36,780 nt of DNA from a virus. Below the pieces are notes generated by a model. That model was not told where the DNA came from. It ran no database searches and was given only the letters and a program-made list of their open reading frames with translations. The stretch spans positions 1-36,780 of the IMG/VR virus record IMGVR_UViG_3300017757_000044. One strand, 5' to 3'. Each line of letters starts with the position of its first letter. Position 1 is the stretch's first letter. Made by a program: the position numbers and the translations under genes. Positions 29,970-33,296 of this stretch are shown piece by piece.

Positions 29970-30345
29970 CTTTTTCTAATTTAGCAACTAAGGATTCTAA
30001 CTCCTTTTTTTTAGGTGTTTTGTCTCTTAAAACATCCTTAATTTTTTCTTTTTCAGTGTCATCAGCTTTACTGTATTTTCTAGCTAATGATTTCATTTCA
30101 GTTTCTATATTTTTTAACGCTTTAACGGCTAAATCTAATTTTTTAAATTTACCTCTTGCACCCATAGCACCTTTAACAGCATCAGTATCATCATCATCAT
30201 CCATTTCAACTACTTTAATGATATCATCATCCTTAGCAACAGCTTTAACTTTTGCTATATTCTCAGGGGATGTTTCAATTGTAGCTTCAGATAAAGTCTC
30301 AATTATATTTTCTTTAATAAATTCTTTTAATTCAGATTTTTTCAT
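29959..30345 (-). CDS. Small acidic protein with possible capsid-targeting N-terminus
   Basis: 128 residues. The N-terminus MKKSELKEFIKENIIETLSE is an amphipathic helix with I/L-x-E sites (IKE, LSE) like those cut by gp21-type proteases in T4 internal proteins. An acidic run DDDDDTDAV follows at about 50-58, then a Lys-rich helical half. No signal peptide or enzyme motif is seen. It has an ATATTTATAA motif 15 bases upstream, and its stop overlaps the next start by 11 bases. It could be an internal head or core protein; this is inference. Confidence 0.5.
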   Translation of the reverse strand: MKKSELKEFIKENIIETLSEATIETSPENIAKVKAVAKDDDIIKVVEMDDDDDTDAVKGAMGARGKFKKLDLAVKALKNIETEMKSLARKYSKADDTEKEKIKDVLRDKTPKKKELESLVAKLEKDAI

Positions 30346-30360
30346 TGTAATTAAATTTTA

Positions 30361-30370
30361 TTATAAATAT
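30361..30370 (-). promoter_or_regulatory. Candidate late promoter (ATATTTATAA)
   Basis: Exact 10-mer 15 bases upstream of the gene start at 30345, one base after the stop of the kinase-like gene. It marks the return to late-type control after the inserted cassette. Confidence 0.5.
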
Positions 30371-30371
30371 G

Positions 30372-30902
30372 TTAAGAATTAATAACATTTAACATTTGTT
30401 CAATTCGCTCTTCTGTAGTACCTTTTATAGTTTCTACATTTTTCATCATATATGCATATTTTTTAATAAAACTCATAATAGTAAAATCTATAACATCTCT
30501 ATAGTGTTCATCTGTTTCACGTACTCCATTATCTTCAATAGGCAAGCCATCAGGAGAAATATAAAAAATGTAATCATATTCTCTAATAAATTCTTTCGCA
30601 TATTCTATAAATTTATCTTTATCTTGGTAAGGTATGGACTTAGCATTTTGAGTAAATGACATTACATCTATTATTGTTCTATCTGTAATAATATCATCAT
30701 GCATTAATTCAGCACAACGTTCAGCTAAAAACACTGTTTGTCCTTTTAGGGTAGAATCCGTATTTAATGGAATGCCTAAACCATTTAAATATTTACTACG
30801 TTCTGTAGCAAAATTATAATTATTAAATTTTGGTAATTGTTTTAGGGCATTAACCAATGTTGTTTTACCTACACTCATTGTGCCACATAATCCTATTTTC
30901 AT
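30372..30902 (-). CDS. P-loop kinase/ATPase of the NadR-like AAA type
   Basis: 176 residues from the ATG at 30902, chosen because the Walker A then sits at the N-terminus (MKIGLCGTMSVGKTTLVNAL, Lys13) and the upstream gene stops one base earlier. A start at 31037 is open but overlaps that gene. A DR motif (IITDRTIIDVMSF) and an Arg-rich lid-like GVRETDEHYRDVI resemble nucleoside or nucleotide kinases and the NadR ribosylnicotinamide kinase fold. Substrate cannot be read from sequence. It is the last gene of the cassette with host-type promoters, in the same direction as an FAD enzyme. Confidence 0.65.
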   Translation of the reverse strand: MKIGLCGTMSVGKTTLVNALKQLPKFNNYNFATERSKYLNGLGIPLNTDSTLKGQTVFLAERCAELMHDDIITDRTIIDVMSFTQNAKSIPYQDKDKFIEYAKEFIREYDYIFYISPDGLPIEDNGVRETDEHYRDVIDFTIMSFIKKYAYMMKNVETIKGTTEERIEQMLNVINS

Positions 30903-30903
30903 A

Positions 30904-31161
30904 TTAATTCCTGTGGTTTTGTCCTTTAGGTGCTGGTTGTTTATACCAAGGCAATCCTGTTTGGTTTCTAATTGCTTCTTTATGATCTTCTTTACTGTAT
31001 TGAATACCATATAAATGATATTCTGCTTTCTTTTCATTCCCTTCAGGAATTAAAGCTGGTCCATCCCAGTTATGTAATTTACCATCCCAAATATAAGCAA
31101 TAGTTCCGTCTGCTTTTTTTAATCTTTGGCTTGCTGGCCACTCGTTTTGTTTTTTTCCCAT
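30904..31161 (-). CDS. Small hypothetical protein with DGKLH-WDGPA motif
   Basis: 85 residues, function unknown. The core ADGTIAYIWDGKLHNWDGPA, followed by EYHLYGIQYSKEDH, has the repeating G-x-L-H-x-x-DGPA / Y-x-x-G pattern seen in many small phage and bacterial proteins of unknown role. No signal peptide. A host-type promoter ends 3 bases before its ATG, so the mRNA may have almost no leader. Its stop is one base before the kinase gene, forming a two-gene unit. Confidence 0.6.
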   Translation of the reverse strand: MGKKQNEWPASQRLKKADGTIAYIWDGKLHNWDGPALIPEGNEKKAEYHLYGIQYSKEDHKEAIRNQTGLPWYKQPAPKGQNHRN

Positions 31162-31164
31162 ACT

Positions 31165-31196
31165 ATAATATACGTAATTTATTGTTATTCTCCAAG
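31165..31196 (-). promoter_or_regulatory. Host-type promoter within the cassette
   Basis: Minus strand CTTG (31196-31193), exactly 20 bases, then TATATTAT (31172-31165), preceded by CG. It matches the promoter before the ssDNA-binding gene across the whole -7 box. The -33 element lies in the last codons of the SGNH hydrolase gene. Only three bases separate the box from the ATG at 31161. Confidence 0.55.
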
Positions 31197-31874
31197 GCTT
31201 TTTGTAAGTTTTATTTTATTAAGTATAAACGTTGAAAACTGTTTATGTCCTAACCAACTAAAATGTCCATCACTTAAATTTTCATCTATATCAGCTATTA
31301 TACTATATTTACCTAAAAACCATTCTTTATAAGACCAAAAATAAACTTTAATATTTCTATTAATTAATTCTTTTGATAATGATTTAACTTGATTAAAATA
31401 CCATTCTGACCATTTATCTTGGTATGGGGCAAAATATTTTTTAGAATAATCTACCGCAACCATTTTACTTTCATCATCACTCCAACCTAAATAATCATGC
31501 CAAGATGTTTGTTGGTGGAGATGATTTTGTTCTTTACCATATTTTTTATCAAAAAAAGTACCGGAATTTAAGCTACCTATTTTATTTCTTTTTTTATCAT
31601 ATGCTAATACACCATCTGGGTTAGAGTCAGATATTATAACAATATCATTATTTAACATATTAGGTATTTCATTAATAAATAAACTTAATAAATAAGGATT
31701 AGCACCCATCCCATATTTAGGATTTCGTTTTTGATTTAAATTTAATTTTTCAGATACTATATCAACCCAAAGTTTATCATTATCTTTAGGTGGATATAAT
31801 TTATAATACTCATCTTCTGGTCTACAGCCAGTGCCATGAGTAAATGAATCACCAAAAAACCAAATATTATTCAT
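31185..31874 (-). CDS. SGNH/GDSL-type hydrolase
   Basis: 229 residues. Block I is at the very N-terminus, WFFGDSFTHGTG, with the nucleophile Ser10. A Gly block is suggested by KYGMGANPYLLSLF, and a strand before NPDG (VIISDSNPDG) may hold the Asn block. Block V is DGHFSWLGHKQFS with Asp202 and His204. SGNH enzymes are esterases or acetyl-hydrolases; in phages they can deacetylate surface polysaccharide or act in the cell. There is no signal peptide or tail-fibre domain, so an intracellular enzyme is as likely as a virion one. It overlaps the oxidoreductase gene by 8 bases, so the two are coupled. Confidence 0.7.
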   Translation of the reverse strand: MNNIWFFGDSFTHGTGCRPEDEYYKLYPPKDNDKLWVDIVSEKLNLNQKRNPKYGMGANPYLLSLFINEIPNMLNNDIVIISDSNPDGVLAYDKKRNKIGSLNSGTFFDKKYGKEQNHLHQQTSWHDYLGWSDDESKMVAVDYSKKYFAPYQDKWSEWYFNQVKSLSKELINRNIKVYFWSYKEWFLGKYSIIADIDENLSDGHFSWLGHKQFSTFILNKIKLTKSLGE

Positions 31875-33174
31875 TTTTTAAAATGTTTTCAGCAACAAAT
31901 GTACCGTGAGCTCCCGATACCGAAATACCTCTTGCAGAAAGGGCATCTCCTACAAAGTGAACATTTGGGTATTTAGTTAATGAAAGGTCATTATAATTAA
32001 CCAACGGTTCAGGAGCCAGATATTTTACCTCAGGTACATAGATTCCCCAATCATCTTTCAATGTAGGAAATACTAACTTCATGTCATTGATAAAATCCTC
32101 AATGTATTTGTAATATCCTTGAAATGCATCTTTAACTACATCTAAATTTTCTATTTTGGTTGATGATACATCTACTCCTTCTGATGTTGTAGATGGTTCT
32201 CTACTTGGACTATAAAATAAACCTGTACTATTTTCTTGTACTTTACCTACTAATTCTCTAGCCCATTTAAATGGTTTATCTATACCTTGTACTTCCATTA
32301 ATATACCAAAATTAGTCATATCATTTCTAAATGCTTCATCTTTTTTAGCGTGACCATTATAACTGTGGTCTCCATATGTTTCTTCTACTGCTACATATGC
32401 AGCATTATTATTTGTACAAAATGATCTTAATGATACACCTTCATTATCAAATTTTCTATATAATTTAAAATCGTAAGCTACATCAATTAACTTTTGAAAG
32501 TGTTTTTGTGGTGCTTCAAATCTAACACCTACTTGAGCTGGTTTTTCTTCTGTTGGTAAATCATATCTTTGCATTATTTCAGAAGTAAAATCAATACCTG
32601 ATTTACCTACACCAAAAATAAGTTTATCATATATTAAACCTTCTACCATTGGTTGGAAATTATCTTGATAATATACTATTTGATCTTTAAAATCTATATC
32701 ATTAACTTTAGTTTCCCAAATAAAATCTACACCTTTACTAACTAAATAATCATACCAACTTTTACCAATTTCATGTAAATAATCAGTACCAATGTGCCAT
32801 ACTGGAAATAATCTTAACCCAAAGTATGGTTTAATAAAATCTGGTTCTTCATCAGGTGAAGATAATATAATTTGCTCTGGGTGAGGGTGAAATCTAGTAA
32901 AATTATCTACTACTTGCTTCATAAGCTCCATTGCTTTTTCATCACCTACATATTTAGATAATTGTCCACCAATTTGAGTAGAATATGTTAATTTACCATC
33001 TGACCAACCACCTGCTCCTAAGTAACCTGTCATTACCTCTTCATATGGTCTTAAATATGGATCTTTACCCATATCTATAATTGTTATTTTACCATCAAAG
33101 TTGTTGTCAACTAATTTTGTAGCTGCATTTACTCCTGCTACTCCTGCTCCTATTATTACTATGTTTTTGCCCAT
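31867..33174 (-). CDS. FAD-dependent oxidoreductase
   Basis: 435 residues from the ATG at 33174. An earlier ATG at 33225 lies inside the terminator and upstream of the promoter, so it is rejected. The N-terminal Rossmann motif NIVIIGAGVAGVNAATKL (G9, G11, G14) binds the ADP part of FAD, and the C-terminal YPNVHFVGDALSARGISVSG is the second FAD contact (GD box). The middle part (VGVRFEAPQKHFQKLID, then FYSPSREPSTT) resembles uncharacterised NAD(FAD)-utilising dehydrogenases. Substrate is unknown. Such a full-length flavoenzyme inside a late structural region is unusual and suggests an auxiliary metabolic gene. It has its own host-type promoter. Confidence 0.8.
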   Translation of the reverse strand: MGKNIVIIGAGVAGVNAATKLVDNNFDGKITIIDMGKDPYLRPYEEVMTGYLGAGGWSDGKLTYSTQIGGQLSKYVGDEKAMELMKQVVDNFTRFHPHPEQIILSSPDEEPDFIKPYFGLRLFPVWHIGTDYLHEIGKSWYDYLVSKGVDFIWETKVNDIDFKDQIVYYQDNFQPMVEGLIYDKLIFGVGKSGIDFTSEIMQRYDLPTEEKPAQVGVRFEAPQKHFQKLIDVAYDFKLYRKFDNEGVSLRSFCTNNNAAYVAVEETYGDHSYNGHAKKDEAFRNDMTNFGILMEVQGIDKPFKWARELVGKVQENSTGLFYSPSREPSTTSEGVDVSSTKIENLDVVKDAFQGYYKYIEDFINDMKLVFPTLKDDWGIYVPEVKYLAPEPLVNYNDLSLTKYPNVHFVGDALSARGISVSGAHGTFVAENILKNE

Positions 33175-33194
33175 TCTAGAATTTAATTTATGTG

Positions 33195-33226
33195 TAAATA
33201 TACGAAAAAAAAATGTGACCTCCAAA
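33195..33226 (-). promoter_or_regulatory. Host-type promoter for the oxidoreductase cassette
   Basis: Minus strand TTTG (33226-33223), exactly 20 bases, then TATATTTA (33202-33195), preceded by CG. The -33 element is the loop and closing base of the preceding terminator hairpin, and the T-tract forms part of the spacer. The leader to the ATG at 33174 is about 20 bases. Confidence 0.65.
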
Positions 33227-33236
33227 TGGAGGCCAC
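33205..33236 (-). terminator. Rho-independent terminator after the three paralogous genes
   Basis: Minus strand stem GTGGCCTCC/GGAGGTCAC (9 bp with one G-T pair), loop ATTT, followed by nine T. It ends the transcript of the three tandem paralogs and overlaps the next promoter. Confidence 0.85.
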
Positions 33237-33296
33237 AGATCTCTTAATTTAATTTAAATAATCGTTCGGCTATGAATCGAACTATATGTGTTACTT

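Follow-up and report, generated by a model that had tools for sequence, protein, structure and literature searches.

A core flavoenzyme unit in the virion-gene region of putative T4-like phages of Bacteroidota is preceded by a pseudoknot that overlaps a terminator

The window, that is, the whole stretch of DNA analyzed here, is the IMG/VR record IMGVR_UViG_3300017757_000044, with a length of 36,780 bases. By its packaging terminase (TerL), the closest isolate is the Flavobacterium phage immuto (Immutovirus), with a TerL identity of 60%, and two relatives were derived from Flavobacteriales MAGs. Based on these matches, the window probably represents a fragment of a phage from a T4-like lineage of aquatic Bacteroidota. 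A search of an annotated phage collection retrieved no isolate of this lineage. The relatives used for comparison are metagenomic contigs, some of which overlap. In the late virion region of the window, four genes on the minus strand form a compact unit, in which neighboring genes overlap or lie no more than about 25 nt apart (Table 1). The terminator, the two host-type promoters, the four packed genes, and the late motif at 30370 that had been listed in the initial annotation are all present in the sequence. The program-made open reading frame of the FAD gene begins further upstream, at a TTG within the terminator; the start used here is the ATG. Next to the unit, at 34810-33297 on the minus strand, three consecutive genes encode related small proteins with a weak match to PHROG 673 ("head scaffolding"; C-terminal part, E ~1e-5), which resemble a tandem family of virion decoration or fibre proteins.

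Table 1. Features of the flavoenzyme unit and of its boundaries (positions in the window).
Feature	Position	Strand	Remarks
RNA element (pseudoknot and terminator), directly upstream of the FAD gene	33282-33205	-	conserved in relatives
P1 hairpin, GTTCG - loop ATTCATAGC (33277-33269) - CGAAC	33264..33282	-	5 bp, covariation
P2 helix, loop UCAUAG (33275-33270) with CUGUGG (33238-33233)	33233..33275	-	6 pairs
Intrinsic terminator, TGTGGCCTCC-ATTT-GGAGGTCACA and T-run	33205..33237	-	predicted to compete with P2
Host-type (early-class) promoter, TTTGG-N19-TATATT	33197..33226	-	before the FAD gene
FAD-dependent dehydrogenase, COG2509/VP0956 type (by profile and fold), 435 aa	31867..33174	-	core gene; ATG at 33174
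SGNH/GDSL-like hydrolase, 229 aa	31185..31874	-	accessory insertion; motifs, sub-threshold Pfam match
Second host-type promoter, CTTGG-N19-TATATT	31167..31196	-	before the 85-aa gene
85-aa protein, HNWDGPA-type motif	30904..31161	-	core gene; 32/32 TerL-seeded loci
P-loop nucleoside/nucleotide kinase (AAA_28)	30372..30902	-	core gene; 32/32 loci; PF13521
Late-promoter motif, ATATTTATAA	30361..30370	-	exact copy, 25 nt before the gene at 30345

Conservation of the gene order was analyzed in 32 loci that were seeded with a TerL pattern and have at least 3 kb before TerL; this seeding was chosen so that the FAD gene would not be selected for, but the TerL alignment itself came from FAD-bearing loci. 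The FAD gene was found in syntenic position upstream of TerL in 31 of the 32 loci, and the 85-aa gene and the kinase gene in all 32, whereas the SGNH-like gene was found in none. The core synteny was also present in 115 of 115 loci that contain both the FAD gene and TerL. In addition, the divergence of the FAD protein keeps pace with that of TerL, for example with identities of 72-75% where TerL is 65-75% identical. The FAD gene, the 85-aa gene, and the kinase gene thus constitute a core frame with two internal exchange sites. Immuto is not among the records with an FAD homologue, and no convincing match to the RNA element described below was found in its first 150 kb, so that "core" applies to the sampled lineage, and not to all relatives.

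The initial annotation had interpreted the unit as moron-like, with an effect on the metabolism or surface of the host. As a moron, it would be an accessory cassette that is transferred horizontally. Indeed, the unit has its own promoters and terminator, the SGNH-like gene is sporadic, and exchangeable genes for cupin, FkbM methyltransferase, and nucleotidyltransferase proteins occur in the gap before the kinase gene. However, of the four genes only the SGNH-like gene is present or absent at the same site among relatives, as would be expected for a moron, while the other three are core and syntenic and the FAD gene is as conserved as TerL. The moron interpretation is thus largely refuted for three genes, survives for the SGNH-like gene, and appears very improbable for the unit as a whole. 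Core, syntenic genes with late expression had been named beforehand as the observation that would speak against it; the synteny was largely found, for three of the genes, while late expression is not supported (see below).

Eight IMG/VR loci were found to carry the SGNH-like gene, which lies directly downstream of the FAD gene in all seven in which the latter is visible; it is the only one of the four genes that behaves as an accessory insertion. The motifs GDS ... DGHxxWLGH are conserved in the aligned homologues, the match to Lipase_GDSL_2 (E 0.017-0.07) is below the Pfam cut-off, and the AF2 model (pLDDT 40) was too poor for a structure search. The motif of the 85-aa protein was recognized in an alignment of relatives. 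Between its gene and the kinase gene, 81 of 186 distinct modules contain inserted genes, most commonly of the cupin/FkbM and nucleotidyltransferase types. Alternative inserts at this site encode, for example, a 140-aa cytidylyltransferase-like protein (L020:7177-7599), a cupin (L009:9708-10810), and an FkbM methyltransferase (L018:4372-4851), which suggests sugar or nucleotide-sugar chemistry. Five distinct modules carry a gene between the FAD gene and the 85-aa gene that was judged by eye to be GIY-YIG homing endonuclease-like (e.g., L123:6858-7535).

The FAD protein has the N-terminus of an FAD-binding Rossmann fold and matches Pyr_redox_2 (1.3e-7). VP0956 (PDB 3nlc) is the closest solved structure in profile searches (E 3.6e-8) and also the top fold match of the confident AF2 model (pLDDT 88.5; Foldseek E 8e-22, TM 0.72/0.60), and a phage protein annotated as COG2509 is 45% identical. 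Profile and predicted fold thus identify it as an FAD-dependent dehydrogenase of the COG2509/VP0956 type. COG2509 comprises uncharacterized FAD-dependent dehydrogenases, VP0956 has no assigned function, and our literature search retrieved neither a characterized member of this type nor a paper on this enzyme in phages. Campylobacter phages carry a distant relative (23-25% identical) annotated as "NAD(FAD)-utilizing dehydrogenase", which in phage NCTC12673 is located near the endolysin and dUTPase genes. In contrast, the FAD gene described here is the first of three genes in a conserved unit before TerL and is equipped with its own promoter and an RNA element. An origin of the FAD gene from the host was rejected, because none of 197 further genomes of the class has a homologue at E 1e-15, a cut-off that distant cellular COG2509 members could miss.

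The kinase had been called NadR-like, and together with the flavoenzyme it had been taken as a hint at NAD chemistry. It matches the broad family AAA_28 (PF13521, 5.9e-9), but its PHROG match to phrog_2107, thymidylate kinase (1.2e-26), is far better than that to NadR (4e-6), and its best solved relative by profile is the deoxyguanosine kinase 2jaq (E 1e-4, versus 0.7 for NadR). By sequence comparison, the kinase thus resembles deoxynucleoside or thymidylate kinases more closely than NadR. In addition, neither NAMPT nor NAPRT was found in nine large relatives. A role in NAD metabolism was therefore dropped; of the names given initially, that of the FAD enzyme is sound, SGNH reflects motifs and a sub-threshold match, and NadR-like has to be replaced by the broader family. 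Immuto encodes a kinase with 30% identity, which is located in a 7-deazaguanine gene cluster.

Both promoters of the unit consist of TTTG or a close variant, about 20 nt, and TATATT, which we take to be the Bacteroidota promoter type. In relatives, comparable sites precede the FAD gene in 64 of 79 and the 85-aa gene in 57 of 99 distinct upstream regions, and TerL in none of 115 upstream regions. The distribution of this promoter class was analyzed in a near-complete relative of 164 kb, in which all 192 called genes are on one strand. TTTGG-N19-TATATT has 17 copies on the coding strand and none on the opposite strand (0.25 expected), and 15 of the 17 are in the first 75 kb, among replication genes. 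Only two copies are found in the structural half, and one of these belongs to the FAD unit. The late motif has 24 coding-strand copies in the same genome, 17 of them beyond 75 kb. In the window, its 9-mer ATATTTATA has 13 coding-strand copies, and 11 of these are followed by a gene start within 70 nt. Neither the window nor any of the 75 distinct relatives checked has the exact motif in front of the FAD gene, and control of this gene by a late promoter was therefore rejected. The terminator, the host-type promoters, the missing late motif, and the prevalence of this promoter class in the replication half all support the earlier suggestion that the unit is expressed outside of the late program; expression probably takes place early in infection. 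Another strong TTTGG-N19-TATATT site is present near the window end (489-460, minus strand), behind the gene at 957-490.

The terminator that precedes the FAD gene is part of a larger RNA element. Its order is a short hairpin (P1), an A-rich linker of mostly 19-25 nt, the terminator's 5' arm (CTGTGGC), a T-run, and the promoter. All five pairs of P1 have changed on both sides, as seen in 63 aligned relatives and in 49 distinct cores, and the P1 loop is nearly invariant; P1 pairing was a criterion for the collection of the elements, so that the percentage of paired P1 positions is inflated, whereas P2 pairing was not such a criterion. The promoter lies behind 182 of 228 distinct elements, with a spacing of exactly 20 nt after TTTG in 177 of them. 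It is also retained where the terminator and the -33 box are separate (L143, L145, L152) and where the hairpin has been lost (L334). In a few relatives (L063:395, L067:895, L295) the linker is about 68 nt long and contains extra hairpins between P1 and the terminator. The positions just before the hairpin (33290-33283, minus strand) are also conserved in relatives (consensus AACATATAG), with no obvious role.

Base pairing is possible between the P1 loop and the terminator's 5' arm and would generate a second helix (P2) and thus an H-type pseudoknot. RNAalifold, applied to the full alignment, found only P1. The terminator stems are of different length and cannot be aligned, and gap-free cores were therefore used to test P2. 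Over 49 distinct sequences, 99.7% of the P2 cells were paired, and three pairs had changes on both sides. When the partner was shifted, pairing dropped to 25-68%; in shuffled controls, three double-changed pairs were reached in one of 500 cases, and the number of double-changed cells was never reached. Examples of such variants are informative: the loop ATTCACATC pairs with GATGTGG, ATTTATAGC with GCTGTAG, ATCTATAGC with GTTGTAG, and ATTCATTGC with GTAGTGG, and pairing is kept in the variant loops of L117/L338, L409, L396, L425, and L363/L364. Most P2 positions are nearly invariant, and the double changes stem from about four lineages. Covariation in the aligned sequences thus supports both helices of the pseudoknot.

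The terminator in the window has a stem of 10 pairs at 33237-33214, followed by the T-run, and is one of the features that had been correctly noted from the start; that its 5' arm doubles as one half of a pseudoknot had been missed. Terminator-like sites are enriched, with nine found and 2.5 expected in shuffles. As the 3' strand of P2 is the 5' arm of the terminator, the two structures are predicted to be mutually exclusive. In the window, the predicted energy of the terminator changes from -17.7 kcal/mol to -8.1 kcal/mol when the P2 bases are sequestered; the mean is -18.0 kcal/mol without and -6.9 kcal/mol with sequestration, and the loss amounts to half or more of the predicted energy in 114 of 148 distinct terminators. 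The P2 duplex itself has a predicted energy of only about -4.5 to -7.4 kcal/mol, and the terminator is thus predicted to be far more stable, so that switching would need a stabilizer.

A form of the hairpin defined by a 20-mer occurs in at least 120 IMG/VR stretches. All 75 newly fetched loci with this form have the FAD gene downstream, 72 of them within 400 nt, and the loop hairpin was present in all 23 TerL-seeded loci in which this could be checked. A search for the element (R1) in nine large records gave one standout match in each, with rough E-values of at most 1e-7 in eight and of 0.001 in the ninth. Where checked, the best match was the copy at the FAD unit, and the secondary matches that were inspected cover only the terminator/promoter half. 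The element is thus present essentially once per genome, at the FAD unit.

The predicted mutual exclusion of pseudoknot and terminator is best explained by a switchable terminator that guards a unit with an early promoter. We hold with moderate confidence that a core three-gene unit, embedded in the late virion region and driven by early-class promoters, is preceded by a pseudoknot/terminator switch. Early in infection, the early-class promoter would transcribe the flavoenzyme unit. The boundary would be a composite of the H-type pseudoknot, whose second helix is drawn from the 5' arm of the terminator, and the early promoter immediately behind it. Late in infection, transcripts coming from the upstream virion genes would fold the element; by default the terminator would win and the incoming transcript would stop, while stabilization of the pseudoknot by a ligand or a protein would sequester the terminator arm and allow read-through into the unit. 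More specifically, we tentatively propose a new class of phage pseudoknot switches in an abundant aquatic lineage, acting by ligand- or protein-controlled antitermination and present about once per genome, that gate late transcription into the core flavoenzyme unit beside an independent early promoter.

As the promoter follows directly after the terminator, read-through would be only partly necessary, and the pseudoknot could instead serve the 3' end of the upstream transcript. It would then be a stabilizer, a processing signal, or the source of a small RNA of the late mRNA and would not regulate the flavoenzyme unit. Indeed, transcription of the RNA precedes the FAD promoter, a terminator forms its end, and termination is the predicted default. 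However, the element remains with the FAD unit even though the genes upstream of it differ from one relative to the next. In addition, no pseudoknot is present in other terminator/promoter composites of these genomes, and P2 is built from bases of the terminator stem itself. A pure 3'-end function seems rather unlikely to us.

Alternatively, the element might be a ligand-sensing riboswitch of the H-type, like preQ1-I or SAM-II, for a metabolite that the flavoenzyme unit produces or consumes. PreQ1-I is an H-type pseudoknot with a short P1, an A-rich linker, and a P2 that feeds into a terminator. The element described here shares this architecture, but its conserved sequence differs, its P2 is longer (6 pairs), and so is its linker. 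The small size, the nearly invariant loop, and the single copy before a metabolic gene are also in line with a riboswitch. However, no Rfam family, riboswitches included, matched at its gathering score in the window, and no QueF was found above the cut-off in nine large relatives, so that preQ1 is not indicated. Sensing of preQ1 or queuosine was rejected, also because preQ1-I was not even among the weak Rfam matches at the element. A riboswitch for a metabolite of the unit is thus an unlikely option. A match to L20_leader (25 bits, versus a gathering score of 58.7) was judged to be a chance match to a terminator shape, and a tRNA remnant was rejected because ARAGORN found none in the window.

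The pseudoknot is previously unclassified, and no description of it was found in the literature. Among the closest known cases are the manA and wcaG RNA motifs, structured RNAs that precede metabolic genes in marine T4-like cyanophages (PMC2864571). Here, too, a structured RNA of a presumably T4-like phage precedes a metabolic gene, but the hosts and genes are different, and an H-type pseudoknot overlaps a terminator. Structured phage RNAs that control metabolic genes are few, and most of them have no known trigger. As the element is short, has a nearly invariant loop, is tied to one unit, and is predicted to exclude the terminator, it is directly testable in vitro. In addition, an early and a late promoter class have been identified for largely uncultured phages. 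An uncharacterized flavoenzyme, as conserved as the packaging terminase, is a core gene in a widespread lineage of aquatic phages.
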